Source: a virus. From it: DNA of 20,694 bases. Shown here piece by piece: positions 618 through 19,926 of the stretch. Positions within the stretch are counted from its first letter, which is position 1, and each line of letters starts with the position of its first letter. The stretch covers positions 1-20,694 of IMG/VR virus record IMGVR_UViG_3300025118_005085; one strand, 5' to 3'. The position numbers and the translations under genes are program-made. The notes beneath the pieces are model-generated. The model saw nothing but the letters and a program-made list of their open reading frames with translations, did not search any database and was not told the origin of the DNA.

Positions 618-624
618 CTAAATA
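618..624 (+). promoter_or_regulatory. CTAAATA late-promoter-like element
   Basis: CTAAATA is followed by exactly five bases (ATTAT) and then the ATG at 630. It resembles the T4 late promoter TATAAATA. The same 15-base string, CTAAATAATTATATG, occurs on the other strand before the fibre-like gene whose start is at 5637. No Shine-Dalgarno lies between the element and the ATG. By analogy with T4 spacing the transcript would begin at or very near the start codon. Confidence 0.55.
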
Positions 625-629
625 ATTAT

Positions 630-1121
630 ATGATTACGATCGATTTAAAGGCCAAACCTAGGGTCAAACGTTGGTTGAAGGAGAATAAAATTAATTTTAA
701 GACGTTGCAGAATACGGCGAATATATTTTTTAATCAAATTCAAAAGCGTAGTAAATCTAATAAGCATTACAATATAGAAATTAAGACATGTGATCACCAT
801 AGTAGTGGATATTATTTTGGGTTTGATGAGCTTCATGTGACACATCATTTAGATCAGAACGGGTGGAGTAGTGATAAGAAGTTCGACACATTTGCTGCTC
901 ATTTTCTTCATGAATTTAGACACTGGATACAGGATAACATGCTTCATGTATCCGAGCGTCGGTTAAATTATACTGATGAAGACAGTGAAAAGGAGAATGA
1001 TAAATATTATTATAACAAATGGGAGGTCGACGCCCGGAAATTTGAACGAAAATATAAGAGAGACTTTATCGATCTATATTATCTTATAGATTCTCTTTCC
1101 AGTAAAAAACTTTTTTATTAA
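630..1121 (+). CDS. HExxH zinc-metallopeptidase-like phage protein
   Basis: This 163-residue protein contains HEFRH at residues 94-98, matching the zincin HExxH zinc site. E132 in WEVDAR, 34 residues after the second histidine, is a plausible third zinc ligand, as in gluzincin-type peptidases. The helix around HFLHEFRHWIQD fits an active-site helix. There is no signal peptide or membrane segment, so it would act in the cytoplasm. The ATG was chosen because the promoter-like CTAAATA ends five bases before it. The next gene follows after four bases, suggesting a two-gene unit. Substrate is unknown; it could process a phage protein or act on the host, but the fold might also be inactive. The motif is clear; peptidase activity is inferred. 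Confidence 0.6.
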   Translation: MITIDLKAKPRVKRWLKENKINFKTLQNTANIFFNQIQKRSKSNKHYNIEIKTCDHHSSGYYFGFDELHVTHHLDQNGWSSDKKFDTFAAHFLHEFRHWIQDNMLHVSERRLNYTDEDSEKENDKYYYNKWEVDARKFERKYKRDFIDLYYLIDSLSSKKLFY

Positions 1122-1125
1122 TATC

Positions 1126-1341
1126 ATGCAAAACATATCAGAATTCGAACGTACAAAACCAACACAAGCATATGCTGCCCTTGATAGCGCAATTGCTAAG
1201 TACCGTCAAATAGTTAATGAGCATACTTATCAAGGTAAGCAATTGATCATGGAGAGTAGTGACGCGCAACGCGCTTCACTAGCGCAGCAAATTGTAAGTG
1301 ACCTTGAGAATATTAAGAGGGTGTTCTTAACTGGAAGTTAA
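1126..1341 (+). CDS. Small hypothetical protein, 71 residues
   Basis: Not recognised. It is a short, polar, probably all-helical protein with no cysteine and no membrane segment, rich in Ala, Gln, Ser and Glu. It starts four bases after the metallopeptidase-like gene with no visible Shine-Dalgarno, so it is probably expressed from the same transcript. Its TAA overlaps the TAA of the convergent 1124-residue tail gene, the two stops sharing the palindrome TTAA at 1338-1341. Confidence 0.55.
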   Translation: MQNISEFERTKPTQAYAALDSAIAKYRQIVNEHTYQGKQLIMESSDAQRASLAQQIVSDLENIKRVFLTGS

Positions 1342-4300
1342 GTTATAACGACGTTTTTGATTTCGTCGTAGTAAGGAGTTATTTTTTCTATCTCTTTTTC
1401 TATTCTTTCTTTAATCTTGTCAGTAAGTAGCGGATCTTTAATTCCCATGTTTTTAATTTCAACTTGATACTTATTGCTTAATTTTTCAGGATAATTAAAC
1501 TTCATTAATTTATCTATAGTATCAATGTACGTCCGCTGCCCCATGGGATAAGACCAAATAACACTTTTATCTTTTAAATGATAATTATAATGAGCCAACA
1601 TATCAAAATAGCTCATTGTTTTATTATATAATTTAAATGCTTTTATTTTTGCATTATTAACAAAATATTTTTTAGGTTGTAATAATCTATTTGCTAATGT
1701 TAAATAATATGGAGTACTAACAGTACCAATATAACAACCTGTACCTAATACACTATCTAATGCATATTTACCTGCATTAAAGTACGCTTGTTGAAATACT
1801 TTTCCATTTACATATAGCTCCATATACCCCTTACGTAAAGATACATTAATAAAGAAATGATTATAACCAGGATGTAATTGAGTTACATCGAAACTTATTT
1901 CAGTCTTTTTTCGAGCGAAGGATCCTGTAGATGAAAATTTAGGCTTAGTTTTTAATAGTACTTTTATTTTATTCTTACTAGCACCAATCTTCTTTAAATA
2001 AGAATAAGATGTTAATGTTTTAGTTAAACGTAAATCTGCTACATCAACCCCTGGTAAATTTTTACTATAAATTACCTGGAGGTCAAAATTTATCTTACTT
2101 AATCTAACACCGTCTGTATATTCTTGTAATAAAAGTATATATTTTTTATACACACCACCTTCAAAATCATATATTAAATCTATATATGTTTGTTCAAAGT
2201 TTAAGTTTTGTAAATTGCAAAATTGTCTTGCTCGAATAAATTTACGGTTATTATCTAAAATAGAAATAATATTATTATCTCCTAATACAACTAATTGATT
2301 TTCGTCATCAATTACAATACCATTTACTCTAGATTTTTTATCTAATCCAGCTTGAATTCTTTCATCCTGATCAGTTCTTAATCCTTTTTGAATATAGTTT
2401 CTATTTATTCCTGGGTTGGATGGGTTAAATTGTTTTAAGATAAAAGGTACATCATTACTATCGAATGCAATCTCATTTCCAAATCCATTTATATTATCAG
2501 CACTTAATATAGTAATATTATTATTTCTATCAAATATTTTTCCTTTTACTCCTAATGTTGTAGCAGAAGGGCTAGAAGTGGTGGTGCTAGAAAAGTTAGT
2601 ATCAGTATTATACGTAAAATATTTCTTAGCAGTAACTGGATTAAATAATATATGTATTTTACATTCACCGACTTCAAAGTCCTCTATTACACAATCCTCA
2701 GGTGCTGTATCTTTTAAGTTTTCAATTTTTCCTACTAAATTATTATTGTTATTAAAAACATAGATTACATTATTATCACCTAATACAAAAACGTCTGAGA
2801 AATTATCTCTTCGACCAACTCCTTTAATACCGATTTCATCTAATCCATCTTTTAATATTACTTCATCATATATTTCAAAATCATTATTTAAAAATAATAA
2901 CTTACTCGCCACCCCGGATTTAGAATTAGTTACAGGTAATATAATATTTGGTGTTACTAGATCAGTATTAAATACACCAAAGCCATCATCAAAATAATTA
3001 CCTATAATTTGATGGCAAAATGGTAAGGTATAATCATTTGTATCTAACCAAAAATTAACACTAAAATCACCAGAGAAATTTGCATTAAATCTCCCTAAAT
3101 TATCTCCATTAAGTATTAATTCATCATCAGTTTTAGACTTATTTGGTAGTACAGGTACACCTTTATAATTCAAATATTCTATATCAGAAGCTTCATTATA
3201 CGGCTCATATGCTTCAAATAATTTTTCATAGTCTTTTTCACCTATATGATAAAAAATATAATCATTATTAGGTTCAAATGTTAAGCTAGATGAGACGTCA
3301 AATGTTTCTGTTGTTTGTGCACCAGCTGCAGTTACTACTTCATAATATGATGTACCAGATAAAGCAGAACTAAAATCAGATACTAATGGATTATAATATC
3401 TATCTACCCATTTTCTATCTCCGGTATTATCACCAGATAACCAACTACATAAATAAATTGGATTTATACCATCACTAAAAGTATTATTTTTTATTACTTC
3501 ACGTCGTTTAAATACCTTGTCTGTCATTAAGGGATTATCACCCGGTACAGCTCCTAAGTTATCAATTTTTGAATCTGCAATATTAAGAATAGTGTATGGT
3601 GATAATGAATTAGGGGTAGTAAAATATGTTAACTTACTTGGTTTAAATTCTATATCATATGTACCAATATTATATGATAATCCTACTTTATCATATCCTC
3701 CTATTTGATGTGTACCTGAATGAATTTTTTCATACATTCTATTTAAATAGGAAGGCTCAGAATTAAAATGGTTATTCTCAGCATAATATTCACTTAACGT
3801 TGCTTGATTTTTTAATGGAATAATATCAGCATGAGATACAATTTTATTATCTAGTTTCTTCTGAAAAAAGTTATAGTTATTATTATAAACAAAATAGTTA
3901 TTACTAATATGGTCTACAGTTGTCGATGTGTTTAAATTTACTGAGTCAGTATTATATGTCGAGCTGTACTTACTATAACTATTTGGTATATATTTAAAAT
4001 CTTTAGTTAATATTTTTCTATTAATATCAAAGAAACTATTACTTAAATCTGCTACAGTATTTTGCCATGTACCAGGAGCGGACATTGTCAACGTATTAGA
4101 ATTGTTTATTAATATATTAGCAGAGGGCCCGGCGGTTACCGTTCCTGCTGGTTGGTGGATTGCAATTACATCATTATCTAAATAAAATCTAAAATATGAT
4201 GGACCTTCTGAAGTCCATCGAGCGGTGATATTTTGATTATTAGGGGCACTTAAATAATATGTTATACTATTATATTCTTGACTAATACTAATTGTATGCT

Positions 4301-4712
4301 CAATAGGAGATGACGATAGACTACTAACAGTAAATGTAAAGAAAAATTGACTACTTAATTGACTAAATTCTGTTGAATCTACAAATGTAGATGATATCGA
4401 ATCAAGATCAGAAAAATCAGTTTTAAGATACTTATCTCCGTGTTGTATAGTAGTAGAAAAAGACTGAATTGATGTATCAGTATGTGGTATATTAAGTTCG
4501 GATATAGTAGATAGTGGGTATAAATTAGTTAATGTATATTGTGTATTAAAATTAGTTTTTTTATCTTTGGGATCTTTATTAAAATAATATTGGTTAACTG
4601 TTAATCCGAAGTCAAAATTTTCTCTATATTTAGTAAATAATATTTTCGAGTCATGTATGTGACTGTATTCTATTGGTGCAATAGATTTACTCTCTATAGG
4701 AATAATCCTCAT
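1338..4712 (-). CDS. Large tail-associated protein with LamG-like domain and propeller-like insertion
   Basis: This 1124-residue protein is the last gene of the tail block and probably a virion protein that contacts the host. Residues about 546-582 (SVNFWLDTND, then HQIIGNYFDDGFGVF) resemble the first strands of a LamG/concanavalin-like sandwich. Residues about 935-1040 (MELYVNGK, then IKAFKLYNKTMS) resemble its last strands. Between them lie about 350 residues with repeated units such as VLGDNNVIYVFNNN (643-656) and VLGDNNIISILDNN (809-822), suggesting beta-propeller blades. The first 500 residues are unassigned, rich in Ser, Thr, Asn and Tyr. The C-terminal 40 residues are charged and probably helical. 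Its ATG is four bases after the stop of the fibre-like gene, with no strong Shine-Dalgarno. LamG is likely; the propeller is an inference from repeats. Confidence 0.65.
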   Translation of the reverse strand: MRIIPIESKSIAPIEYSHIHDSKILFTKYRENFDFGLTVNQYYFNKDPKDKKTNFNTQYTLTNLYPLSTISELNIPHTDTSIQSFSTTIQHGDKYLKTDFSDLDSISSTFVDSTEFSQLSSQFFFTFTVSSLSSSPIEHTISISQEYNSITYYLSAPNNQNITARWTSEGPSYFRFYLDNDVIAIHQPAGTVTAGPSANILINNSNTLTMSAPGTWQNTVADLSNSFFDINRKILTKDFKYIPNSYSKYSSTYNTDSVNLNTSTTVDHISNNYFVYNNNYNFFQKKLDNKIVSHADIIPLKNQATLSEYYAENNHFNSEPSYLNRMYEKIHSGTHQIGGYDKVGLSYNIGTYDIEFKPSKLTYFTTPNSLSPYTILNIADSKIDNLGAVPGDNPLMTDKVFKRREVIKNNTFSDGINPIYLCSWLSGDNTGDRKWVDRYYNPLVSDFSSALSGTSYYEVVTAAGAQTTETFDVSSSLTFEPNNDYIFYHIGEKDYEKLFEAYEPYNEASDIEYLNYKGVPVLPNKSKTDDELILNGDNLGRFNANFSGDFSVNFWLDTNDYTLPFCHQIIGNYFDDGFGVFNTDLVTPNIILPVTNSKSGVASKLLFLNNDFEIYDEVILKDGLDEIGIKGVGRRDNFSDVFVLGDNNVIYVFNNNNNLVGKIENLKDTAPEDCVIEDFEVGECKIHILFNPVTAKKYFTYNTDTNFSSTTTSSPSATTLGVKGKIFDRNNNITILSADNINGFGNEIAFDSNDVPFILKQFNPSNPGINRNYIQKGLRTDQDERIQAGLDKKSRVNGIVIDDENQLVVLGDNNIISILDNNRKFIRARQFCNLQNLNFEQTYIDLIYDFEGGVYKKYILLLQEYTDGVRLSKINFDLQVIYSKNLPGVDVADLRLTKTLTSYSYLKKIGASKNKIKVLLKTKPKFSSTGSFARKKTEISFDVTQLHPGYNHFFINVSLRKGYMELYVNGKVFQQAYFNAGKYALDSVLGTGCYIGTVSTPYYLTLANRLLQPKKYFVNNAKIKAFKLYNKTMSYFDMLAHYNYHLKDKSVIWSYPMGQRTYIDTIDKLMKFNYPEKLSNKYQVEIKNMGIKDPLLTDKIKERIEKEIEKITPYYDEIKNVVIT
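1348..1369. terminator. Weak inverted repeat at a convergent gene end
   Basis: ACGACG and CGTCGT form a 6-bp stem around a 10-base loop, seven bases beyond the plus-strand stop and inside the last codons of the minus-strand gene. Its position where two genes meet tail to tail suits a bidirectional terminator. Neither strand has a proper T-run after it, and it may be chance. Confidence 0.25.
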
Positions 4713-4716
4713 CTCG

Positions 4717-5637
4717 TTAGCTTGTTATTTTTGTTCCTCTTAAGTATGAGTTCTTGTATATGGCTGTCTTGTTACCGCTCGGGGCTGATCGGACTTTAAA
4801 GAATATTGTATCTCCTGGGCTTATTAAATCCATATAATCGAAATCAATGACTTGATTCTTACTATCACTAACGGAACTGAAGTCTCGTGTGGTCTTCTCG
4901 TTATTATCAACGTCTAGTATATTCATTCGTATAGTTATTTTACTGGACTTTGGAAACCGGAAGTGACCTTGGAACAGTATTGTACTAGCAACATATGCGG
5001 CTGTGTTTGGATATGTAATCTCAAATCCTCTAGTCCCGTTCAATTGAAAATTTGTTAAGTCTGAATTGATTGTCGTCCAGTCTGCACCTGACGGTAATAC
5101 TGAATGATCAAATCCAATGTAACTCTGGTTACCTGAAGCCTTCGGGAGGCGATCAAGATTTTTAACGTTAAAATTAACTGATTTAAGAATTGTTGTTGCA
5201 GAGCCAATAGATGTTCCATCTAGATGTACTTCGTTTGCCGCGATAGCATCGGCATTAGCGGTCACTTGAGTGCCGAGATCACCAATGTCGTCCACCCTGG
5301 CACTCAATGCGGTAATATCATCATAGTTCTTCTTCGCCATGTCAATTACATGCTTTAAGTCCCCGTAAGTAAGAGTTTTTCCTTCTGTTGTTCCTGCTTT
5401 TGGAATAGTGTATTCATCCACACTTTGAGTTAAAATATTACTACCATCTATTTCAGAAGCAACACTAGTATCGTTTAATCTATCTTCAAAAGTTATATTG
5501 TCTGTACTAATAACAAAATCTTTAAAGGATAGCAGTTTTGTACCATTATTTGTTTCAATGAGTAGCTTATCAGTATTCAATATCTCCGTACCAGCATCTA
5601 GATCTGATATATTAATGATTTCGTCTTCTATTGCCAT
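4717..5637 (-). CDS. Short tail-fibre-like protein
   Basis: This 306-residue protein begins with ISDLDAGTEI and DKLLIETNNGTKLLSFKDF, the style of N-terminus seen in phage fibre adaptors. Residues about 95-138 are a heptad-like helical stretch consistent with a trimeric coiled coil. Residues about 170-306 are strand-rich (GFEITYP, GHFRFPKSSKITIRM, GDTIFFKVRS) and could be a C1q/TNF-like jelly-roll tip. G+C is about 30% over the first 80 codons and about 40% over the rest, so the tip may have been acquired separately. A CTAAATA element ends five bases before the ATG and there is no Shine-Dalgarno. A fibre role is probable; receptor and exact fold are inferred. Confidence 0.55.
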   Translation of the reverse strand: MAIEDEIINISDLDAGTEILNTDKLLIETNNGTKLLSFKDFVISTDNITFEDRLNDTSVASEIDGSNILTQSVDEYTIPKAGTTEGKTLTYGDLKHVIDMAKKNYDDITALSARVDDIGDLGTQVTANADAIAANEVHLDGTSIGSATTILKSVNFNVKNLDRLPKASGNQSYIGFDHSVLPSGADWTTINSDLTNFQLNGTRGFEITYPNTAAYVASTILFQGHFRFPKSSKITIRMNILDVDNNEKTTRDFSSVSDSKNQVIDFDYMDLISPGDTIFFKVRSAPSGNKTAIYKNSYLRGTKITS

Positions 5638-5642
5638 ATAAT

Positions 5643-5649
5643 TATTTAG
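5643..5649 (-). promoter_or_regulatory. CTAAATA late-promoter-like element
   Basis: Read on the minus strand this is CTAAATA, then ATTAT, then the ATG at 5637. Sequence and spacing are identical to the element at 618-624 on the other strand. It lies in the 17-base gap after the 380-residue gene and would let the last two tail genes be transcribed on their own. Confidence 0.55.
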
Positions 5650-6801: not shown

Positions 6802-9765
6802 CTAAAACCCAGCCCCCAGTTGCTGCGTGTCATCTTCAATTATCCATCTGTTTAGATCTGGCCAACTTATGTCAGTTATTCCAGCGGCCGCTCTTAAATT
6901 ATCTCCCGACGTTCCTGGCAATCCTCTAATTGTTTCTCGCGCGATGGTTTCGGCGAGCGGATCAATCATGATGTTACCAGGAACCTCTGTAATAAACGAT
7001 CCTGATTCTGCTCCAGGCGACCCGCCAACTACTCCTCCTACTGTTTCTCCTGCTACATCTTGTGTTTTTGTTTTGACTTCATCAAGTAAGCATCTCTTTG
7101 TTTTTGCGTCTGGCGCGCCATAGCTATCTGATTTAATTGACTTAAATGCACCGAAACTAATTTCATCGTTATCTGGCCATAAATGACCACTTGAATAAGG
7201 TGTCATTTGACCATTAGTTGATGTGCGTAATTGCCAGTGACGAATTCCAGGATTATCAGCCATCATATCTACACTAGCATCATTAAACGCACGAGTTATT
7301 TTTAGTGTATTAGGAAAGATAGAAGTAGCATATGTACCTGGTAAAAGTTCATCTAACTCGGTAAATCCTAATTCAAGTGTTCCTCTCCACCAACTTAAAG
7401 CATGTACCCAAACGGTATGTTTACCTATTCTTAGCATCCACCAGTTAGTAGTATAATTATCTTTGGTTGATGTTATAGATGATATTCCGTCAGATCCTCG
7501 TCCTCCTTGTAGAGGATCAATTTCAGGATTACCAACAGGAGAGTTAAAAGTATAAATTCTATCATTACCGAAGGTGCCATCTTGCATTGACGTCGTACAT
7601 GCCATTTCCCATCCATATCTCAATGATTCGACTTTCGGTTCTTCTATATCAACAATTTCTGGTTTCGGTAGGACACCACCACACGTAATAAATTTATTAA
7701 GAACATCGTGATTTCCTAGCTCTGCGTCTGATATAGCTTTGTCTATTTCTTCAGGAGTTAAGTTTTGATATTGTACGCATATATCCTCTTCAATTACTTC
7801 TGGTTCAGATGGTGCGCAAATTGTAATTTCATCTCTTATATTTTTTTCATATTCTATATCTGCTAATCTTCGTTTTGCTGGTATTGCTATATCAATATCT
7901 AATTTATCATCAGTAGTTACTCCTTCAGAACTAGCTTTCATTCTCACTAGTCTTTCTCTAAAGTTTTGCGATGCAAGTGCCATATAATTAGCCATATCAG
8001 GTGCATTAATTTCATCAACAATTGGCTCTGTTGTGTCACAAGGCTCGTCTATTTTAATACCCGTTACTTCGAATTTCTGAATTTCAAAAAAACTACAATA
8101 ATTACTAGTTGTAAAAGTTAATCCTACATTAAGTGGAGCTAATTTACCTTGTTTACCCCAGCCGCCTTCTCCGAGGCTGCCTTCTGTAAAATCAACACCA
8201 TCATGTTCACCAATATTTGCCCATGGTTGATATGCTGCTCCAGTAGTAGAATTTATTACTGTAGGTAGTTTGAGCTCTGCAATCATATTATAGGTATCAA
8301 CACTAGAGAGTTTATTATAAATTGTAATTTTTCTTCCCCTGTCACCTAAGTCTATTCTATAATCAACAAAAGGAACATCTGAACCATCAGCTAGTGTAGT
8401 AGTTGTATGCATAGGTACCGCGCTCGCTGCTTGCATAGTATTCATAGGTATACAAGTTAATACTTGAGTATTGTGATATACACTACCTCGTATACCTACA
8501 GAACATGGAGTTTGTGTAAACGTACCGTCACCATAACCGGTGAAGTGACCGACGCCGCCATTTTCAGCATACCAACCCGGTTTTTGTTCGTCTTTCATAC
8601 AAAAGTTACCTCTTATATCAAAACCAACACCTAGAAAACTATTTGCAAGTCGACCTCTAGTCTCATCATTCCATTTAGTAACTGAACCGTCATCATTAAC
8701 AGTTTCACCACGGCCTTGTATAAATATTCCTTCCGATGCTTGAGATGTTCCAGCTACCTCGGTATCAATAAATTCCGAAGGTGCATAACCTAATGTACTA
8801 CCTATACCATTAGGAACAACTGTACCGGAATCAGGACATACATTTTCATGAAAATAAACACAAAATCCTTCTCCTGGGCCGTCAGGTAAATATTGTTGAA
8901 GCCACCTAGAAGCTGTCACCACCGGTGTTCCCGTACTTAGATCTGTTCCTACAACTGTAGAGCTGCCATACGCTGTCATTGATGGTACATTGAACGACCG
9001 TGCTCTAAAATCTACTCTAATATTATGTTCAGGATCAAATGCTGTATATTTAGGATTATAGGTTATATAACCACCATGGTGCATAAGTGGGAATGCAGCA
9101 TTACCAGTTAATGGTTCAATTGATTTATCTAGTTGATCTGATAATAAATTAAATCCTATACTGCTCATGCTTTCTACATGAGTCGGTTTTATAAGATATT
9201 CTGGTGATCTTTCTGTATCTCCATAAAAGGATTCTTTATTATTTCTTACTGCATTACTACCTAGAGTTAAGTCAGAGTTTAAATAACCATCAATAAATGT
9301 ATATGGATTAATAGTAAATTTATCTGTGGGTATGTAAATGTCAGCGTTTAATAAGAAAAAATCAGTATTTATATCTTGGAAAATAAAATTAGATATTGCA
9401 AACCCTTCTGCGGCAGTATCGTATTTACCTATAAACGTTACTGAATATCTATTGTTAGTCTTATTATAATTAATAAGTGGTTTTGTTATTGATGAATAAT
9501 TTGTACCCTCAGAGCACGTTGGCGTAAGAGCCCATATATCAGAATTTACATCTGTTGCTATTGTGTCAATATTTTTTGGATATATGGTAGATTTATAATT
9601 TGTGTCTTTATCTATTTTATATATAATAGGTAATGCGCCATATACTGTTTCTATTGAACTACCGTTTTGACATCTATCCGCAGTAATAGAACTAACAGTA
9701 CAAACAAACATTTGAGTTGTTTCTTCATTGTAAAAAATATCTGATTGTTTTGTATCAAATGGCAT
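6802..9765 (-). CDS. Tail protein with L-type-lectin-like domain
   Basis: This 987-residue protein has a central region (about residues 245-572) with features of an L-type lectin/concanavalin sandwich. These are GPGEGFCVYFHE (296-307), STLGYAP (323-329), FLGVGFDIRGNF (377-388) and a closing VGLTFTTSNYCSFFEIQKF (547-565). In the family the GxGxxF and xVxFD strands frame the sugar site. The N-terminal 240 residues are unassigned. A linker at about 580-710 has several cysteines and acidic stretches, followed by a Trp-rich segment (WWMLRIGKHTVWVHALSWWRG) here named only by its start at about 778. The last 110 residues are Gly/Pro-rich and encoded by GC-rich DNA. A glycan-binding virion role is likely; the ligand is unknown. 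A GTAAATA element precedes the ATG. Confidence 0.6.
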   Translation of the reverse strand: MPFDTKQSDIFYNEETTQMFVCTVSSITADRCQNGSSIETVYGALPIIYKIDKDTNYKSTIYPKNIDTIATDVNSDIWALTPTCSEGTNYSSITKPLINYNKTNNRYSVTFIGKYDTAAEGFAISNFIFQDINTDFFLLNADIYIPTDKFTINPYTFIDGYLNSDLTLGSNAVRNNKESFYGDTERSPEYLIKPTHVESMSSIGFNLLSDQLDKSIEPLTGNAAFPLMHHGGYITYNPKYTAFDPEHNIRVDFRARSFNVPSMTAYGSSTVVGTDLSTGTPVVTASRWLQQYLPDGPGEGFCVYFHENVCPDSGTVVPNGIGSTLGYAPSEFIDTEVAGTSQASEGIFIQGRGETVNDDGSVTKWNDETRGRLANSFLGVGFDIRGNFCMKDEQKPGWYAENGGVGHFTGYGDGTFTQTPCSVGIRGSVYHNTQVLTCIPMNTMQAASAVPMHTTTTLADGSDVPFVDYRIDLGDRGRKITIYNKLSSVDTYNMIAELKLPTVINSTTGAAYQPWANIGEHDGVDFTEGSLGEGGWGKQGKLAPLNVGLTFTTSNYCSFFEIQKFEVTGIKIDEPCDTTEPIVDEINAPDMANYMALASQNFRERLVRMKASSEGVTTDDKLDIDIAIPAKRRLADIEYEKNIRDEITICAPSEPEVIEEDICVQYQNLTPEEIDKAISDAELGNHDVLNKFITCGGVLPKPEIVDIEEPKVESLRYGWEMACTTSMQDGTFGNDRIYTFNSPVGNPEIDPLQGGRGSDGISSITSTKDNYTTNWWMLRIGKHTVWVHALSWWRGTLELGFTELDELLPGTYATSIFPNTLKITRAFNDASVDMMADNPGIRHWQLRTSTNGQMTPYSSGHLWPDNDEISFGAFKSIKSDSYGAPDAKTKRCLLDEVKTKTQDVAGETVGGVVGGSPGAESGSFITEVPGNIMIDPLAETIARETIRGLPGTSGDNLRAAAGITDISWPDLNRWIIEDDTQQLGAGF

Positions 9766-9772
9766 ATAAAAA

Positions 9773-9779
9773 TATTTAC
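9773..9779 (-). promoter_or_regulatory. GTAAATA late-promoter-like element
   Basis: On the minus strand this reads GTAAATA, then seven bases, then the ATG at 9765. Its first G is the last base of the TAG stop of the upstream 776-residue gene. No Shine-Dalgarno is visible. It could give separate late expression of the lectin-like gene. Confidence 0.45.
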
Positions 9780-12109: not shown

Positions 12110-14958
12110 AAGCTAAGTCCTTTCCTAATTTGATAATCTAGATTATTAAAAATTATACCACCGTCATTTTCCCAGCTGGCACTAAGAGAGGATGTTGATC
12201 TTGAGATTGTTGTATAAGGATTATTATAATCTATGATACTGTTTTCAATATTTTCAGCTGATAAGGTTGTATCATATGCTGTATATGGATAAAATTCATA
12301 CAATAAATCTAAACCACTAGCACCAGTTACTGTTGTATCTAATTCCCAGCCCCAGTTACTATATACATTATACGTGGAAAGTGGGTATGTAGCCGATACA
12401 CCAGCTGTTGAACCATCTACACTTTTTGCAGGTACTTGTTGAGGGTTAATTAAAATATATTCATTATTAAATTTTTGTAATGCTACAAATTTTGTATCTG
12501 CTGTTACTTCATAAGTTAATGAAGTGATAGGAGATGTAAGATCTATATTTCTACTAGCAGCAGAGCTTGTATAATATTGTGTGTCGAAATTATCATTAAC
12601 TCTATGGTAGTCACCTAATAGTTTAGAAATTTTAATACTAAATAAGTTATATAATCTTTTTAATTCAGGTGGCGGATTAGGTGATACAAAATCAATATCT
12701 TCATTAAAAAAGTCATAGAATGATTGTATATTTTCTATTTTACAAAAATCAATATCAGTATTATTTGAAACAAAATTAGCTGTTTTTTCAAATATAGTTT
12801 TACCGAATACAGTAGGACTCGAACTTGCTTGACCTACAAATGATGTAAAAACACCATCAAATAAATTATCATATTCATGTAAAAAGGATTGAAATCTATA
12901 GCTTTTTAATACTTGAGAGTAATCTATATCTTCGTTTATTTTATATATTTCAACATCATTAGTAGAAGGGCTTATTGTAAAGGTATATGAACCTGTTATA
13001 ATGTTGTCACCTTTAACTCCAAGAGACACAGGACCATATGGTCCTGTAGGATCATAATCTATAGTGTCGTTAAACGCAGAGAGTGAAGTCAGAGCGGAAA
13101 AGTTGTTTTGCCGTCCAGTTACATTTAATGTCCATGTACCGGCGCTAACTGGATCAATGTTAAGATATAAAAAGCTGCTTAATTCTGTTTTTTCCGTTGT
13201 TGGATTATATGGTAAACTGGTAGTACTTAAACTACTTATATTGCTCGTCGATGTTGTATCTCCACTAACCCATTCAACAAAAAATTGATTACAATCAATT
13301 GTAACATCACTTACTATACCGTCGAAATTTTCAGTGGCTTGTATGTACAATCTTTGAGGTTGAGTATTATCTGCATCAACGAGTACAATGTGAGTCTTAT
13401 TTTCTGTTAACCCATCGTCACTGTATGGTGGTGTTGGATCAGTAGTACCTAAAAATAATCTTACCCATCCTGCGGTACGATTAGATATAGTTAAAGAAAC
13501 TTCATATTCTTTTCCTAAAACCGTATTTACATCTTGATATAAATTGTTAACACCTGCAGTATGTGCAAAGTGAACAGCTCCAATACCAGCTGATAAATGC
13601 CACCCTGTAAGTGGGGTTCCATCTGCAGACGTCGTGGCAGTCCATGCGCTTAATGTGCTGGTGTGATCATAATCAAAATCTCCATTAGAGAGAGATATAA
13701 AATTACTAGTAGGCTCATGGAAAAATTGTGAAAAATATTTACCTATGTTTAATTCTTCATCTGCTAAACCGATAAATAGTTGGAATTTATCACCTTGTCT
13801 TTTATATTGTATAGCAGACATTTCTTTCATTCCGGTAGATGTAAAAGATAATCTTGTCGGAGATGACGGTGTTACTCTTATTGGAATACCAGCAATAGCA
13901 TTAACGTTATCAGTGCTTACTCCTGCAAAGTTTGTCTCTAAGTGATTTCTTTCGCTTAAGTTTATATCTGTAACTAAATTATCTATATAAAAGTTTTTTA
14001 ATTTATGTGTACTTGTATCTAATCTAATTAATAAATTTACACGATCACTTCCAATATAATTAAGTATATCATCATAATAATAAAACTTTTCTCCGGTGTC
14101 ACTAGCAGTGTGTATTGTAGCCCTATAGGTTGCTAAATCTAAACCATAAGAATTATTGAGTGCTCGCTTCGTACTTGAATAAAGTAAGAATTTATCCGCT
14201 TCAGCTTGATCTTCAGATGTTATAGGAGAAACTTGACTATTAGTATCTATGAAAAAATATTGTGGATTTAATTGATATTGTACTCCGTCAATACTATTTA
14301 TAAGGTTTATATTTTTATCATAAAATGCATTATATGGTATTAAGTGAGCATATTTATTATTAATGTCATATGGTTTTGCCTTACTACCACTAGCTGTAAA
14401 ATATACGGTATGAGGTTCATCTGGGTCAGGAACATCTTGCCAGCTTGCTGTAAGACCAACACCTAAAGATCTATCTCCTTGTATCGGTTTTTTACCAGCG
14501 GTGATAGATATTGGATCATTTGTATCTACATCTTTTACGCTTATGCCTATTCTAGTATTTGCATAATTATATACACTTAATTGTTCTGTTAATGTATTAA
14601 GATGAGAATTACCATCTTTATCATAAAAGAAAACCGTTACAGTATATATACCCGGTACATTATATGTGTGTGTTGCCGTAAATGCATTATCACCACTTAA
14701 TGTATATCCGTCTCCAAAATCCCATACAGATGTTGCGATTGATAGATCTATCAAAGAGCTTTGTATCGACAGTCCTGTGTCACCAATAGTGCTGAGTAGA
14801 GGGTTAAAAGTAAACTTTGATATACGAGTAAACCCACTATGTGAACTTGCTAGAGAATGTCCAGCTACTGGAGAGGGAGAGTCCGCAGATGTGTTAACAG
14901 TAATTGATATAGGTACTGGTAGAGTAATAGGACAATTTGACTCATTTGTATCGCTCAT
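12106..14958 (-). CDS. PKD-domain tail protein with CBM-like module
   Basis: This 950-residue protein follows gp6 directly. Residues about 70-130 are a PKD domain: WDFGDG at 79-84, HTY at 97-99 and PGIYTVTV at 102-109, then DKDG. Residues about 424-556 resemble a carbohydrate-binding module of the CBM4/9 type: NGDF, a tryptophan pair around GWHLSAG, YQDV, GKEYEVSLTI and a closing GIVSDVTID. The C-terminal 270 residues are unassigned and may anchor to the baseplate. PKD domains often act as spacers in surface and virion proteins, and CBM folds bind sugars, so an adhesin or spike-connector role is likely. The start overlaps the gp6 stop as TAATG. PKD is firm; CBM is moderate. Confidence 0.65.
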   Translation of the reverse strand: MSDTNESNCPITLPVPISITVNTSADSPSPVAGHSLASSHSGFTRISKFTFNPLLSTIGDTGLSIQSSLIDLSIATSVWDFGDGYTLSGDNAFTATHTYNVPGIYTVTVFFYDKDGNSHLNTLTEQLSVYNYANTRIGISVKDVDTNDPISITAGKKPIQGDRSLGVGLTASWQDVPDPDEPHTVYFTASGSKAKPYDINNKYAHLIPYNAFYDKNINLINSIDGVQYQLNPQYFFIDTNSQVSPITSEDQAEADKFLLYSSTKRALNNSYGLDLATYRATIHTASDTGEKFYYYDDILNYIGSDRVNLLIRLDTSTHKLKNFYIDNLVTDINLSERNHLETNFAGVSTDNVNAIAGIPIRVTPSSPTRLSFTSTGMKEMSAIQYKRQGDKFQLFIGLADEELNIGKYFSQFFHEPTSNFISLSNGDFDYDHTSTLSAWTATTSADGTPLTGWHLSAGIGAVHFAHTAGVNNLYQDVNTVLGKEYEVSLTISNRTAGWVRLFLGTTDPTPPYSDDGLTENKTHIVLVDADNTQPQRLYIQATENFDGIVSDVTIDCNQFFVEWVSGDTTSTSNISSLSTTSLPYNPTTEKTELSSFLYLNIDPVSAGTWTLNVTGRQNNFSALTSLSAFNDTIDYDPTGPYGPVSLGVKGDNIITGSYTFTISPSTNDVEIYKINEDIDYSQVLKSYRFQSFLHEYDNLFDGVFTSFVGQASSSPTVFGKTIFEKTANFVSNNTDIDFCKIENIQSFYDFFNEDIDFVSPNPPPELKRLYNLFSIKISKLLGDYHRVNDNFDTQYYTSSAASRNIDLTSPITSLTYEVTADTKFVALQKFNNEYILINPQQVPAKSVDGSTAGVSATYPLSTYNVYSNWGWELDTTVTGASGLDLLYEFYPYTAYDTTLSAENIENSIIDYNNPYTTISRSTSSLSASWENDGGIIFNNLDYQIRKGLSL

Positions 14959-16793
14959 TAATATTCAACTATACTTTTGGTTGTTACAGTACTTGTTATT
15001 TTGATTTTATTTTTAAACGATTGCTCGTTTTCTATATATGGTATTTGAAATGGTTTTAATTTTAATCTTGTATCAATAAATTTTATATCTCTACCATTAT
15101 AAATAGGATTAAATACAGCGACAGACAATCCAGGAACTCCTTGATTTATGTCTGTTCTCCATGTTTTAAATTCTAATATACCATCTATTTTTTCAATTTC
15201 ATTATTTAAAGAACGAACATCTATAGTATCACCTAATTTTAGTCCTTTTATATAAGTCGTAATTATATTAAACACTTTAGATTTTAATTCTTCTTCATTT
15301 ATTAATGTTCTTGCACTTCTAACTAAATGTAATTCTGTATAATCCTTATAGGATACCTTAGCTGATTCACTAGTAAATTTAAGACATAGATCAAAATTTA
15401 GGTATATTGGATCTATAAATGTTATTTCACTATTAAGTAGCTTATAATCTGTAAGTTCATTTTGTATTTTTTCTTTTAATGACGGTGATAGATAATTTGA
15501 CCGTGTTACAACAGATTTATTTTTTCTTAAATTAGGTACTATGGTTAAATATATATTATTTGCATCAGAACTATCAGCATAATAATACTGATTAAATAGC
15601 GCATTTGTTTCTAAAGAGTAATCTGTTAATCCTAATTCATCATTTAAGTATTTTAAATATCTATTTGTATAATCGCTATTATTATATACTGTTACATCAT
15701 AAATTAAATTTTTATAATTACGTTGAATAAACGATTTATAATCACCCTTTGTAGTTAGTTTATATTCTGAACTAAAGAATCGAGGTGAATTTTGTTTAAT
15801 CTCATCTGTAGTTTCTTCTACGCCGAAATCAGTACTATCCTCATCGTTACTTATTGTTATATTAACCGACTCTGCCACAGTTATATAATTAAGAGAAGTA
15901 TCTTTTATATCTGTAAATATTGTATCAAATTGTGTAGTATTATATACATTTGTGGAGCTACCAGAGAAAGCATTTTTTGTTATTTTACCAGCTGGGCCGT
16001 TTGATTTTAAATAATAGATAGCAATTGTATCATTTAAATTTAATTTCTTACCATTAACATTATTACCAAATTTTAATTCATAATTTTTATTTTCATTATA
16101 TCGAACTTCAAAATGTCTGTTATTAGGTTCAGATAAAAATAAACTAGGCGCTCGATTCCATTCATACCATTTATTGTCCTCACTAACTTCTTTTACGAAA
16201 ACAAAAATATTAAAGTGATCTATTATAACGTTTGACCCAGGTAATAGATTTATTGTTTCAAACTGCTCACCTAATGGTTTAATTAACGGATATTCCACTA
16301 TTGTACCTTCATATAATAGTGGAGAATCAGTAGTAGAAGAAATAGATTCAGTATCAGAGGTTATTTTTTCAAAGGTTAAGTCTTTTACGAATGTATACGT
16401 TTTACCTTGACTAGAGGAGAATGTAAATCTCGGAATTGTATAATACCCGGCTGAAAGATCGGACGTACCTTTAATTTCTATTGGTAATACGCATGATTGC
16501 TTACCAACTGGTTTATAATCTATAAGTTTAACTATACGATTTATATTTTCATATAGACTAGCGTCATTAAAATTACTTTCTGAACTAGTTTGATTTAAGT
16601 AAAATAATAGAGTATGATAAGAGTATGCAATAATGTCAATCAGTGCAGAAACGTTACTCCCTTCAAAGTTTTGATCAGTAAAATTTATTGTGTCGTCATT
16701 ATTGAGACGTTCAATAATTAGGTCGCGCAGGCTTTGAGCATCAAACCCTGTGTATGCATTTGTCGGTAATTTGAAATCTGTAAAATTAGCCAT
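14958..16793 (-). CDS. 6: Baseplate wedge subunit, T4 gp6-like
   Basis: This 611-residue protein resembles T4 gp6 (about 660 residues), which dimerises to form the inner ring of the baseplate and controls its change of shape on infection. The N-terminal 100 residues carry the conserved pattern: LRDLIIERL, FEGSNVSALIDIIAYSYH, then NDASLYENINRIVKLIDYKPVG. Later parts (GYYTIPRF, NYELKFGNNVNGKKL, TIAIYY, then GPAGK) match the Baseplate_J/gp6 core. The last 150 residues contain alternating strands as in the family. It starts two bases after gp25, the same gene order as in T4 (25 then 6). An AAAGGA at 16808-16813 lies 14 bases upstream, rather far for a ribosome binding site. Identification is confident. 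Confidence 0.85.
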   Translation of the reverse strand: MANFTDFKLPTNAYTGFDAQSLRDLIIERLNNDDTINFTDQNFEGSNVSALIDIIAYSYHTLLFYLNQTSSESNFNDASLYENINRIVKLIDYKPVGKQSCVLPIEIKGTSDLSAGYYTIPRFTFSSSQGKTYTFVKDLTFEKITSDTESISSTTDSPLLYEGTIVEYPLIKPLGEQFETINLLPGSNVIIDHFNIFVFVKEVSEDNKWYEWNRAPSLFLSEPNNRHFEVRYNENKNYELKFGNNVNGKKLNLNDTIAIYYLKSNGPAGKITKNAFSGSSTNVYNTTQFDTIFTDIKDTSLNYITVAESVNITISNDEDSTDFGVEETTDEIKQNSPRFFSSEYKLTTKGDYKSFIQRNYKNLIYDVTVYNNSDYTNRYLKYLNDELGLTDYSLETNALFNQYYYADSSDANNIYLTIVPNLRKNKSVVTRSNYLSPSLKEKIQNELTDYKLLNSEITFIDPIYLNFDLCLKFTSESAKVSYKDYTELHLVRSARTLINEEELKSKVFNIITTYIKGLKLGDTIDVRSLNNEIEKIDGILEFKTWRTDINQGVPGLSVAVFNPIYNGRDIKFIDTRLKLKPFQIPYIENEQSFKNKIKITSTVTTKSIVEY

Positions 16794-16795
16794 GA

Positions 16796-17275
16796 TTAGT
16801 ATTGAAATCCTTTCGTTGTAAGCGTACCATTAACACTCTCTACTTGATTATTTAATGAAGGTATTGTAATAGATATATCTACTACATATTCATTCCAATC
16901 TGGTCTAGCTAAAACGTCAACACTATTTACCTTTATACGTGGTTCATACAATGGTAGCTCTTCAAGAATAGTAGTACCGATTATGTCTCCGTTTTCTTTA
17001 CTAATATTATCAAATAAGTATTGTTCAAGATCTAAACCGAAATTAGGATTAAGAATTTTCTGACCTTTCTTTGTATTAAAAACATTATGTATAGAGTTAT
17101 AAATTGCTTTAGTATCGTAATCTAATTTAAAATCTTGAGGATTTTTTGATGTTCCGGTTGGTTTAGTAGATAGTCGACTATTAAATTGTACGTCTAAGTG
17201 AATATCTGCATAAGAAAAATTACGATAATTATCTGTATTTTTTCTTTTTTTAAATATATCAAGTTTAATAGCCAT
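16796..17275 (-). CDS. 25: Baseplate wedge subunit, gp25-like (GPW/gp25 family)
   Basis: This 159-residue protein, against 132 in T4 gp25, is a structural part of the baseplate wedge that interacts with gp6 and the sheath-initiating region. Family signatures are clear: AIYNSIHNVFNTKKGQKILNP (57-77, split here by its parts AIYNSIHNVF and GQKILNPNFG), LEQYLFDNI at 83-91, and LPLYEPRIKV with the hallmark EPR at 111-113. About 40 extra N-terminal residues are basic and polar. It heads the minus-strand tail block, with a TTAAATA element seven bases before the ATG and no Shine-Dalgarno. The old name gp25 lysozyme is misleading: I see no lysozyme catalytic motif. Confidence 0.9.
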   Translation of the reverse strand: MAIKLDIFKKRKNTDNYRNFSYADIHLDVQFNSRLSTKPTGTSKNPQDFKLDYDTKAIYNSIHNVFNTKKGQKILNPNFGLDLEQYLFDNISKENGDIIGTTILEELPLYEPRIKVNSVDVLARPDWNEYVVDISITIPSLNNQVESVNGTLTTKGFQY

Positions 17276-17282
17276 CTATAAT

Positions 17283-17289
17283 TATTTAA
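17283..17289 (-). promoter_or_regulatory. TTAAATA late-promoter-like element for the tail block
   Basis: On the minus strand this reads TTAAATA, then seven bases, then the gp25 ATG at 17275. A further TATAAAT at 17289-17296 overlaps it and could be an alternative. It lies in a 46-base divergent gap that also holds the plus-strand element at 17308-17315. Confidence 0.45.
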
Positions 17290-17307
17290 TTTATAAGTGC
17301 TTAATAC

Positions 17308-17315
17308 CATAAATA
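17308..17315 (+). promoter_or_regulatory. CATAAATA late-promoter-like element
   Basis: CATAAATA differs from the T4 late consensus TATAAATA at the first base only. Six bases separate it from the ATG at 17322. It is the best match to the T4 consensus in the window and lies back to back with the gp25 element. Confidence 0.6.
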
Positions 17316-17321
17316 ATTTAA

Positions 17322-17816
17322 ATGAGTACGTTCGATACATTATTTGAAGCCCAGATCGGTCGGTTTGTAAAATCAGGTCCTATTGCGGGTGATTATGTTA
17401 AGTTTTCTGGTAATTTTAAATCATCTGATTGGTATAAGGCTCTTGATGAAGCCCGACAGAATTATGTAAATGAAATATTAACTTTATCCGAACAAGGTAA
17501 ACCTCTTATGCTGTCTACAATTAAAAAGGCAATATATGAGACTGGAGCTACAGATTCGCAAGCACAAATAGCTGATATAGTCGTAGAGTATGCTCCTGGT
17601 TTTTATCATCAATCTTTAACACTTCCTTTAGAACTTCTTGAATTTTCTGAGACGTGGGATGAGCATAGAGCTACTGGAAAAGATCCAACTAACGATCAAG
17701 AAGATCATACTACATTAAAACCGAAAGAGGTTGAAAGTAAGACTATTGATGTTGGACAGCAAACTCACGTACCTGATGGTGACTATAAGTTAGGTACGGC
17801 GAATTACATGCCTTAA
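17322..17816 (+). CDS. Hypothetical protein, 164 residues, between gp25 and gp44 genes
   Basis: Not recognised. The N-terminal half, from FDTLFEAQIGRF through DWYKALDEARQNYVNEILTL, looks helical. A middle segment with ADIVVEYAPGFYHQ follows, and the last 50 residues are polar and probably disordered (Thr, Lys, Asp, Glu). It has no cysteine, signal or membrane segment. It is a lone plus-strand gene flanked by minus-strand genes, with its own T4-late-like promoter and stop codons that overlap gp44's as TTAA. The late promoter suggests a virion or assembly protein, but that is inference only. Confidence 0.55.
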   Translation: MSTFDTLFEAQIGRFVKSGPIAGDYVKFSGNFKSSDWYKALDEARQNYVNEILTLSEQGKPLMLSTIKKAIYETGATDSQAQIADIVVEYAPGFYHQSLTLPLELLEFSETWDEHRATGKDPTNDQEDHTTLKPKEVESKTIDVGQQTHVPDGDYKLGTANYMP

Positions 17817-18721
17817 GGGTGTAATTCGAGTATGCAAGAATAGAAGTTGATCTCTTGATCAATACATTGACTATTCTGATAAAAGTATTTAGAGATTGTA
17901 ATTAGACAGTCTCTTTTTCTTTCTTCAGGTATAGAGCTTATATACATAAAATCAAATAAGCGTTTAAACAGCTCGTCATAATCATTGTTAAATAAAGCTT
18001 CATTTTCAATAATTTGCTTACGAATCACAAAATACTTTTTTTGTTTTAATAATTCTATTAGCCCATCAAAAAAATCTTTTGTAATATTAGTAGTAGTGTT
18101 TTCTCCATCAGACAAATAATATTTTTGTAAAGTATTAATACCTTTTCTAAAATCCGGATAACAACTATTAACAATATTTGTAAAATTTTCTTTGTTAATT
18201 TTTATCTCTTCAGCTTTAACAATAGATATTAATTTAGTTAAGTATTCATTTTTATCATAATTAATATCAAATATTTGACATCTACTTTGTAGAGCTGGAA
18301 TAATCTTATGTTTATAATTTGCTGTAAGTATGAATCTTGTTAAGTCATGATATTCTTCTATCGAGTTGCGTAGCGCTTTTTGCGCATCAATAGATAATCC
18401 ATCGCACTCGTCAAGTACTATAACCTTAATTTGCCCAAAGAGACTCTTTGTCTGCGCGAAGTTTAAAACTTTTGTACGGATTGTATCTATACCGTTTTCA
18501 TCTGATGCATTGATATAGAGATATTGACACTTAAGAATATCTTTAACAATAATTTTAGCTAGAGAAGTTTTTCCAATACCAGGCTTACCTACAAATAAAA
18601 CATTAGGTATATTTTTATCTTGTTGTACTTTATTAAAATAGTTTTTAGTGCTTTTGTCTAAAACTATTTCATCTAAAGTACTTGGTCGATACTTTTCGCA
18701 CCAAATATCAGAAATTGTCAT
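17813..18721 (-). CDS. 44: Sliding-clamp loader ATPase, T4 gp44-like
   Basis: This 302-residue AAA+ protein (T4 gp44 has 319) loads the polymerase clamp onto DNA. It opens with the RFC-type WCEKYRPSTLDEIV. The Walker A loop is GKPGIGKTS (45-53), Walker B is VIVLDECD (100-107), sensor 1 is TAN (133-135) and the arginine-finger SRC motif is at 146-148, so all ATPase elements are intact. The C-terminal 150 residues are helical, as in the collar domain. Its ATG overlaps the stop of the 63-residue gene (ATGA), indicating coupling. No gp62-like partner gene follows: a plus-strand gene meets it tail to tail. Identification is confident. Confidence 0.9.
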   Translation of the reverse strand: MTISDIWCEKYRPSTLDEIVLDKSTKNYFNKVQQDKNIPNVLFVGKPGIGKTSLAKIIVKDILKCQYLYINASDENGIDTIRTKVLNFAQTKSLFGQIKVIVLDECDGLSIDAQKALRNSIEEYHDLTRFILTANYKHKIIPALQSRCQIFDINYDKNEYLTKLISIVKAEEIKINKENFTNIVNSCYPDFRKGINTLQKYYLSDGENTTTNITKDFFDGLIELLKQKKYFVIRKQIIENEALFNNDYDELFKRLFDFMYISSIPEERKRDCLITISKYFYQNSQCIDQEINFYSCILELHP

Positions 18722-18909
18722 TGTATGGAATGTATTATCTGATGGACTTCTGCATTTTTAATCCAATCATTATTAACACTCTCATCCATTTGTAATTGCT
18801 TAAATGCCTTTTCTTCTGCTTGAAGGACATTTTGAGCTCTGACTGTATACTCTCGGTATTGAAAGGGTATAGATTTACCGGGAGATTTAAATTCTACTTC
18901 GTAAGTCAT
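18718..18909 (-). CDS. Small hypothetical protein coupled to clamp loader, 63 residues
   Basis: Not recognised. It begins with a likely beta-strand pair (YEVEFKS and YREYTVRAQN), then a helix (AEEKAFKQLQMDES) and ends with VHQIIHS, giving a compact small fold. It lies five bases after the dUTPase stop and overlaps the clamp-loader start as ATGA, so the three genes are probably one operon. The frame is kept open between two certain genes with coupled spacing, which supports it being real. A role near nucleotide or DNA metabolism is suggested by position only. Confidence 0.6.
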   Translation of the reverse strand: MTYEVEFKSPGKSIPFQYREYTVRAQNVLQAEEKAFKQLQMDESVNNDWIKNAEVHQIIHSIQ

Positions 18910-18914
18910 AATAA

Positions 18915-19400
18915 TTATCCAGTGGATCCAAATCCATCTTCACCTCGCTCAGTGTCGTCGATTTTATCTGTTTCGGAAATTGTTGCTGTAATATGAGGAT
19001 ATAATACTAATTGAGCAATTCTGCTACCTTTGTTTAAAGTTATGTTTACGTCGCTAAAATTATATAATTTAACACCTAGATCACCTCTATAACCATTATC
19101 GATAATACCTAAATGTGGTTGAATGTTATGTTTAAATCCTAAGCCACTTCTAGGTTCTACTCGAAACCAATACCCGGGTGTAATATATGCTAATGTTAGG
19201 CCTACAGGTACAACTATAGATCCTCGTCCTGGTACTCGAACTTCCTCTACACTATACACATCATATCCAGAATCACTGTCATGAGCTCTATGTGGTAGTT
19301 TGGCGTCAGGATGAGTTTTTACTACTTTGAGTTCAATCTCATTATAAGATATATTTGTACTAGTAAGTGCCTCGTACTGCAATGGCTGAAAATCGTCCAT
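18915..19400 (-). CDS. dut: dUTP diphosphatase (trimeric dUTPase)
   Basis: It hydrolyses dUTP to dUMP and pyrophosphate, keeping uracil out of phage DNA and supplying dUMP for dTMP synthesis. All five conserved motifs of the homotrimeric family are present in 161 residues: motif 1 DSGYDVYS (43-50), motif 2 PRSGLGFKH (83-91), motif 3 GIIDNGYRGDLGV (98-110) with the catalytic Asp 101 and Tyr 104, motif 4 GSRIAQLV (125-132), and motif 5 RGEDGFGSTG (152-161). The N-terminal 22 residues are an extra polar extension before the core. It is first in the dUTPase, 63-residue protein, clamp-loader series. Unlike several late genes it lacks a TAAATA element, as suits an early replication gene. Identification is firm. 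Confidence 0.95.
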   Translation of the reverse strand: MDDFQPLQYEALTSTNISYNEIELKVVKTHPDAKLPHRAHDSDSGYDVYSVEEVRVPGRGSIVVPVGLTLAYITPGYWFRVEPRSGLGFKHNIQPHLGIIDNGYRGDLGVKLYNFSDVNITLNKGSRIAQLVLYPHITATISETDKIDDTERGEDGFGSTG

Positions 19401-19406
19401 ACAATG

Positions 19407-19434
19407 AATATAGTATATAATTTAGATTTTTCAA
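19407..19434 (-). promoter_or_regulatory. Possible sigma70-type early promoter for dUTPase
   Basis: On the minus strand TTGAAA (19434-19429) and TATATT (19412-19407) are separated by 16 bases, a reasonable -35/-10 pair. Transcription would start very near the ATG at 19400. AT-rich DNA yields such pairs by chance, so this is tentative. It overlaps the divergent GTAAATA element's neighbourhood. Confidence 0.25.
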
Positions 19435-19441
19435 GTAAATA
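19435..19441 (+). promoter_or_regulatory. GTAAATA late-promoter-like element
   Basis: GTAAATA is followed by five bases (CTTTT) and the ATG at 19447, the same spacing as at 618 and 5643. It lies in a 46-base divergent gap between the dUTPase gene and the plus-strand 159-residue gene. Confidence 0.45.
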
Positions 19442-19446
19442 CTTTT

Positions 19447-19926
19447 ATGGATGACATTGATCCAGCAGATTTAATATCGCAATTAAAAACTGTACCAAAA
19501 GCTAGTAGAGAGTTAGCACAACAGTCAGAGAGATTTAATATTTCTAAAGATGAAGTTGAAGATTTTATTATACAAAAATCATCTAAATTAATTCAAGATT
19601 CTTTAGAGTTAATAGATAATATGAAAGAGGTGGTTCATCATATGCCTGAAGCAGAAAATGTCTCTTCTCTTGCCGAACTTATTAAAGCTTCAACTGGTGC
19701 TATTGAAACATTAAATAAATTAGTTGTTCAGGATAAAAGATCTAATACTACTATAAAGGCGAAACAGTTAGATATAGATTCTAAAAAAGAACTTCAAAAC
19801 GCTGATCAACAGCATGCATTAATGTTGAGTAGAGATGAAGTTCTTGATCGTTTATTGAAAGATTCAAAGATAATTAATGTAGAATTGGATGTAAAGGAAC
19901 CTGATAGGATAGAAAAAACTACCTAA
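19447..19926 (+). CDS. Candidate terminase small subunit, gp16-like
   Basis: This 159-residue protein is almost all helical and similar in length to T4 gp16 (164 residues), the small terminase that recognises DNA and regulates packaging. A central helix pair (SSKLIQDSLELIDNMKEVV, then LAELIKASTGAIETLNKLVV) could form the oligomerising hairpin of a small terminase. A Gln/Lys-rich stretch follows and then LSRDEVLDRLLK. I base the assignment on overall pattern and length, with no diagnostic motif. A late-promoter-like element is consistent with packaging. Against it, no large terminase gene follows: the next gene runs the opposite way and overlaps its end by eight bases. It could be another helical virion protein. 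Confidence 0.4.
   Translation: MDDIDPADLISQLKTVPKASRELAQQSERFNISKDEVEDFIIQKSSKLIQDSLELIDNMKEVVHHMPEAENVSSLAELIKASTGAIETLNKLVVQDKRSNTTIKAKQLDIDSKKELQNADQQHALMLSRDEVLDRLLKDSKIINVELDVKEPDRIEKTT

Follow-up and report, generated by a model that had tools for sequence, protein, structure and literature searches.

Late-promoter boxes that abut start codons predict leaderless late messages in an uncultured clade of T4-like phages

The viral contig IMGVR_UViG_3300025118_005085 (20,694 bases, 31% GC; this whole stretch is called the window below) carries six copies of the hexamer TAAATA, the core of the T4 late promoter, that end only 5 to 7 bases before an ATG. We consider it highly likely that these are gp55-type late promoters from which transcription would start at the A of the start codon or one to two bases ahead of it, and that the late messages are accordingly leaderless and devoid of a Shine-Dalgarno (SD) sequence. 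This start-abutting layout is a property of a whole uncultured clade of T4-like phages to which the contig belongs. Leaderless late expression had been proposed in an earlier note on the window; placement tests, conservation among orthologues and a contrast with T4 and cyanophages now support this interpretation, which stays a prediction made from sequence.

The boxes and the genes that follow them are listed here, the spacing being the number of bases between box and ATG.

619 to 624, + strand: predicted late-promoter box TAAATA (site A), 5 bases before the ATG at 630
630 to 1121, + strand: gene after this box, encoding a 163-amino-acid protein with HEFRH, an HExxH-type motif; no PHROG or Pfam family
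5643 to 5648, - strand: predicted late-promoter box TAAATA (site B), 5 bases before the ATG at 5637
4717 to 5637, - strand: gene after this box, 306 amino acids, no family
9773 to 9778, - strand: predicted late-promoter box TAAATA (site C), immediately following the upstream gene's stop codon and 7 bases before the ATG at 9765
6802 to 9765, - strand: gene after this box, 987 amino acids, no family
17283 to 17288, - strand: predicted late-promoter box TAAATA of gp25, 7 bases before the ATG at 17275
16796 to 17275, - strand: gp25 baseplate wedge gene (PHROG 261/43, Pfam GPW_gp25), heading an operon of gp25, gp6 and further genes
17310 to 17315, + strand: predicted late-promoter box TAAATA (site E), 6 bases before the ATG at 17322, divergent from the gp25 promoter across a 46-base gap
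17322 to 17816, + strand: gene after this box, 164 amino acids, no family
19436 to 19441, + strand: predicted late-promoter box TAAATA (site F), 5 bases before the ATG at 19447
19447 to 19926, + strand: gene after this box, 159 amino acids

The six cores lie where the earlier note had placed them, with spacings of 5, 5, 7, 7, 6 and 5 in window order. It was also correct that one 15-base string, CTAAATAATTATATG, occurs on opposite strands (618 to 632, +; 5635 to 5649, -) and that no SD sequence is found at the boxes (0 of 6). Its estimate that about half of the starts with noncoding upstream sequence carry the box pointed the right way and was too low: by open reading frame (ORF) coordinates, seven window starts are preceded by a noncoding stretch of at least 12 bases, and six of these have it. 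The seventh, that of the dUTPase gene (19400, -), reads TTGA-N18-TATATT-N6-ATG, a sigma70-type promoter abutting the ATG.

TAAATA is common in DNA of 31% GC, with 61 copies in these 20.7 kb, and its position before starts might be due to chance. The hexamer is not enriched in the window overall, however (70 copies expected), and yet it stands 5 to 7 bases before 6 of the 15 window starts, whereas dinucleotide shuffling of their upstream sequences, repeated 4,000 times, never gave a count above 3. The fourteen other hexamers made of four A and two T, which served as controls, score only 0 or 1 at these starts. Tests of this kind on the window and on the individual relatives, together with the orthologue conservation reported below, refute chance, to which we leave practically no probability. 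The proposal also withstood the refuting test named in the earlier note, a motif no commoner before starts than elsewhere, both for the window and for all close relatives.

When viral contigs were scanned with gp6 and gp44, more than 100 related loci came to light, several of them in contigs of 75 to 200 kb; most are 69 to 100% identical in gp6 and 72 to 100% identical in gp44, and a few are more distant. We surveyed eight large relatives (G001 to G004, G006 and G008 to G010, with G009 and G010 identical at many sites), two more distant ones (G005 and G011) and several reference phages. Genes were called by our own procedure, which takes the longest ATG-started ORF and is blind to promoters, and TAAATA was then tabulated by its distance to the start. 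All eight relatives peak sharply at 5 to 7, each with 13 to 33 starts against a shuffle mean of 0.9 to 2.5. When the eight are pooled, 166 of 1,144 genes have the box at 5 to 7 against about 12 expected from the same upstream regions, a count that is not made of independent cases since the relatives share ancestry; significance is carried by the per-genome tests, in which each genome is significant alone. An unbiased scan of hexamers by position ranks TAAATA at 5 to 7 first of all hexamers. The boxes are concentrated at operon heads, being present before 128 of 561 genes with an upstream gap of at least 12 bases versus 38 of 583 others (Fisher p 2.5e-15). Among such heads in G001 are gp25 and gp15, and also some non-structural genes, namely those for thymidylate kinase, a DHH phosphoesterase and radical SAM proteins. 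The relatives encode homologues of core T4 genes: gp23, gp20, gp21, gp18, gp17, gp43, gp46/47, UvsX/W/Y and gp55.

The layout is conserved gene by gene. At five of the window sites, 138 of 142 orthologous starts have TAAATA at 5 to 7: 45 of 45 for gp25, 47 of 48 at site E, 29 of 29 at site F, all 6 distinct starts at site B, and 11 of 14 at site C, where the other three have it at 9 to 10. Site A has no orthologue in the conservation set, and the same box and spacing recur in G001. Among window genes other than late heads, TAAATA stands at 5 to 7 in 0 of 155 orthologous starts; the count is 0 of 32 for gp6 and 0 of 50 for the gp44-like gene.

14958 to 16793, - strand: gp6 baseplate wedge gene (PHROG 219), operon-internal, no box
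17813 to 18721, - strand: gp44-like clamp loader subunit (PHROG 168), operon-internal, no box

A second class of heads clarifies where transcription may begin. At intergenic starts without a late box, the strongest signals are TATAAT at 6 to 8 and TTGATT at 27 to 29, and 33 of 81 promoters of this early class match TTGA-N18-TANNNT-N6-ATG at exactly 18 and 6. Early heads in G001 include uvsY (first gene of uvsY-uvsW-gp55-gp47-gp46), dUTPase, a Dda-like helicase and QueD; the spacing of 6 at uvsY is conserved in six genomes. In the window, the class is represented by the dUTPase gene.

19431 to 19434, - strand: -35-like TTGA of the putative dUTPase early promoter, identified from sequence and belonging to the clade-wide TTGA-N18-TANNNT-N6-ATG class
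19407 to 19412, - strand: -10-like TATATT of the same putative promoter, 6 bases before the ATG at 19400; the G001 orthologue is classed as early
18915 to 19400, - strand: dUTPase gene (PHROG 135, Pfam dUTPase), predicted to be a leaderless early gene

In the 46-base gap 19401 to 19446, two divergent promoters thus appear to stand head to head, an early one for dUTPase (-) and a late one (+), each abutting its own ATG.

RNA polymerases favour a pyrimidine at -1 and a purine at +1, and the -10 box of sigma70 promoters occupies -12 to -7. The T4 late box occupies -13 to -6 (PMC2988020). If both types of promoter start on the A of ATG, these positions predict spacings of 5 for TAAATA and 6 for TATAAT, and these are precisely the modes observed. 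The base at -1 is a pyrimidine in 75 of 78 late sites at spacing 5 and in 54 of 64 early sites at spacing 6, against 150 of 267 other intergenic starts. Where the spacing is 7, 22 of 25 cases have a purine as the sixth base after the box, ahead of the ATG, and 21 of 25 have a pyrimidine as the fifth. Spacing 5 is thus predicted to put +1 on the A of ATG, and spacings 6 and 7 are predicted to give leaders of about one to two nucleotides; the earlier note had placed +1, for the boxes in general, on this A or within two bases of it. Early and late operon heads would both be leaderless. In this respect a view confined to late genes was incomplete: sigma70-type early promoters abut starts too, and a few strong late genes keep a short leader.

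Transcripts of this kind raise the question of translation. SD-like sequences precede 5 of 166 late heads and 1 of 90 early heads, the same as in control windows, and are found before 53 of 528 downstream genes versus 36 of 528 in the control window. Most downstream genes overlap or adjoin the one before them, the commonest junction offsets being -4 (143 cases) and -1 (66 cases), and translational coupling is therefore the likely route to them. Because a clade nearly free of SD sequences needs some other initiation signal and the segment next to the ATG is A/T-rich, TAAATA might instead be an A/U-rich, non-SD ribosome signal, with the real promoters farther upstream. Operon-internal genes, however, also need initiation and do without the box, as the counts above for non-head and head genes show. 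In addition, the other class of heads has TATAAT with a -35 element 18 bases further up, which would be meaningless for translation, and the gp55 box of T4-like phages is known to have TAAATA as its core, which lies far from the ATG in T4 and cyanophages. We regard a translation signal as improbable.

The start codons were picked by ORF rules only, and if the true starts lay 10 to 25 bases further in, the messages would have ordinary leaders. Several observations contradict this. In gp25 orthologues, codons 2 to 8 vary as coding sequence does immediately after the ATG (0.19, 0.03 and 0.36 at codon positions 1, 2 and 3), and no in-frame ATG occurs within 20 codons in 45 of 45 gp25 and 29 of 29 site F orthologues. 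Site C, where 11 of 14 orthologues have a second in-frame ATG, is less certain. Third-position variation and the lack of a following ATG indicate that the called ATGs are in general very probably the true starts, and the independently deposited starts of pelagiphage HTVC008M, described below, give the same spacing. Misplaced start codons are a very improbable explanation.

The earlier note had recommended a search for a gp55-like sigma factor: the window fragment itself is without gp55, and a homologue (phrog_234) is present in 9 of the 11 large relatives (E 1e-27 to 1e-29). The gp45 sliding clamp gave a single remote match (G008, E 1e-5). A conserved protein of 243 to 265 amino acids without a clear family aligns weakly to gp45 (hhalign probability 66%, E 5e-5), and from these sequence comparisons the clamp of the clade is probably a very divergent protein. 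The DNA polymerase of the core clade keeps a DLFDFF tail that resembles a clamp-binding motif.

L130:214-945, - strand: candidate divergent gp45, with orthologues in G003, G004, G006 and G008 to G011

Some of the data weigh against the proposal. The clade gp55 is short and ends in ...DYDRELYT rather than in a T4-like hydrophobic-acidic tail, so that its clamp-binding motif is unrecognisable (loci L193 to L200). No credible gp33 homologue was found in the clade genomes, although such an absence is weak evidence for small, fast-evolving proteins. The TAAATA core is present at these sites, but the full TATAAATA with TA at -13 and -12 is not: at spacing 5, position -13 is A in 45 of 65 and T in 11 of 65 boxes, and position -12 is A in 33 and C in 15 of 65. 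Variants with A at -13 or a/gC are known within the gp55-box family (PMC2988020). Nor is the rule absolute among late genes, for gp18, and gp23 and gp21 in some genomes, have boxes 12 to 19 bases up. The tail sheath gene gp18 has its box 16 bases up, then an SD-like AAAGG, in several genomes, and in gp23 of G002 TATAAATA lies 19 bases up, then AAAGGA; these short-leader genes (L129:3520-6180, -, L140:10532-12106, +, and their orthologues) possibly form a strength class. Lastly, the pyrimidine-purine step at -1/+1 is not clean at late sites of spacing 6.

This last point, together with the divergent gp55 and the undetected gp33, leaves some room for promoters that are real but used by a polymerase starting farther down or up than that of T4, which would yield leaders of a few bases or lost first codons. 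The offset between late (5) and early (6) spacings and the pyrimidine at -1 indicate instead a start on the A of ATG; if transcription began farther downstream, the message would lose its start codon. Such a shifted start is unlikely, if marginally less so than a ribosome signal. We thus retain the view that the boxes are gp55-type late promoters, and we infer that gp55 uses them, that 5' ends fall at the AUG and that ribosomes initiate there; late transcription in the clade may nevertheless be wired differently from that of T4.

Comparison with cultured phages places the layout in context. By the same procedure, no TAAATA was found at 5 to 7 in T4, Syn9, S-PM2, S-SKS1 or phiM12. The boxes of T4 and the cyanophages form a broad peak about 20 to 28 bases upstream, which is the leadered layout, and the method therefore reproduces the known situation in known phages. 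The gp55 late promoters of T4 (TATAAATA; PMC2988020) share with those of the clade the TAAATA core, an A/T-rich downstream segment, gp55, the use of both strands and structural operons such as that of gp25. They differ in having the box about 20 to 28 bases before the ATG and a leader with an SD sequence (20 of 26 genes with a far box), compared with a spacing of 5 to 7 and no SD in the clade. Unlike T4, the clade has mostly A then A or C as the first two bases of the box, close to the a/gC variant reported for Aeh1, and its gp33 is undetected. Cyanophage late promoters (NATAAATA; PMC2984593, PMC3037559) have the same core as those of the clade, and marine T4-like cyanophages are among the nearest cultured relatives, at less than 40% identity in gp23, gp44 and TerL. 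Syn9, S-PM2 and S-SKS1 nonetheless lack boxes at 5 to 7, and P-SSM2 has five, barely above shuffles. Four late boxes of P-SSM2 (AY939844) lie at exactly spacing 5 and others 20 to 25 bases up, a weak signal that may represent the same layout in a cyanophage.

Late boxes at exactly spacing 5 also occur in HTVC008M (ten), Mosig (five) and the methylophage Melnitz (three), mostly without SD. In these three phages, an SD sequence precedes 2 of 19 genes with a box at 5 to 6, against 31 of 45 with a box 15 to 32 bases up (p 2e-5). The deposited annotation of HTVC008M uses the same starts, for the baseplate wedge (gp25), DNA end protector, head completion, tape measure and CsgF genes. Unlike the clade, these phages are mixed: their other late genes are leadered with SD, and their early sigma70 promoters do not abut starts. 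Leaders in Lactococcus cremoris, mapped experimentally for host genes, are bimodal, near-absent or long, with none of 4 to 14 nucleotides (PMC10986495); the late boxes of HTVC008M and Mosig, which are known from sequence, look similarly bimodal. Bacterial leaderless 'TA-led' genes (PMC3160421) have a -10 box about 12 bases before the start and no SD, and the clade resembles them in both respects, the first T being at -12 in TATAAT and at -11 in TAAATA. TA-led genes were described for host sigma70 promoters, whereas here a phage late-sigma box and the early promoters of the same phage both obey the rule. We found no report of leaderless late messages in T4-like phages in the open-access literature, subscription journals being mostly outside this coverage.

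The host was sought by several routes. Alignments of gp6 and gp23, scanned against the GTDB-species collection, detected no member of the clade, the gp23 matches (29 to 31% identity) being other T4-like contigs, and phage records held nothing above 40% identity for gp23, gp44 or TerL. Transfer RNA genes are nearly absent from the clade genomes (two, both in G006). When 190 genomes of one class were screened for TTGA-N17-19-TATAAT-N6-ATG, no clear host candidate emerged, few bacterial groups being reachable in this way. Bacteroidota promoters are of the TAnnTTTG type, and a Bacteroidota-type explanation for the lack of SD is not favoured, given early promoters of the TTGA/TATAAT type. A phage-encoded ribosomal protein bS21 is present in HTVC008M (91237 to 91392), Mosig, Melnitz, G006 (G006:C1:80975-81127, L171), G008 (G008:C1:60388-60537) and G011 (G011:C1:9618-9755). 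It is absent from T4, P-SSM2, Syn9, S-PM2 and S-SKS1, and was not found in G001 to G005, G007, G009 or G010; because most clade records thus appear to be without it, bS21 was rejected as a general cause of leaderlessness.

The remainder of the window agrees with a T4-like phage. Its T4-type genes are gp25 and gp6 of the baseplate wedge, the gp44 clamp loader and dUTPase, alongside long genes without any family, some of which are probably structural given their position after gp25-gp6. The protein encoded after the site A box contains HFLHEFRHW, a metallopeptidase-like HExxH motif, but matches no family. At the left edge, 3 to 482 (+) is the end of a DUF932 gene (phrog_1221).

A mechanism can be proposed in which a gp55-type late promoter is placed such that the RNA 5' end would fall on or near the A of the AUG, the host ribosome would start at this 5'-terminal AUG, and later genes of the operon would be reached by translational coupling at overlapping ATGA/TAATG junctions, the sigma70-type early promoters of the clade being positioned likewise. 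More tentatively, and at slightly less than even odds, we suggest that the whole infection programme, early and late, may run on leaderless heads with coupled downstream genes and almost no SD. The clade would in this way be adapted to a host in which initiation occurs chiefly at 5'-terminal AUGs, with help, in some members, from bS21 and from a late apparatus lacking gp33. Pelagimyophages would be intermediate, leaderless late promoters coexisting in them with leadered ones.

Textbook accounts of T4 late transcription take leaders and SD sequences for granted. If our reading is true, promoter searches that expect a leader miss phages such as these, and the layout may partly explain why late-promoter prediction was reported as unsuccessful for pelagimyophages in a 2020 study (PMC7029224). 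The start-abutting layout allows transcription starts to be predicted to the single base from sequence alone, and start codons to be called better. It would also suggest that the host uses leaderless initiation, which is useful in the search for it, and the similar layout in part of the cultured HTVC008M makes the leaderless prediction testable in the laboratory.

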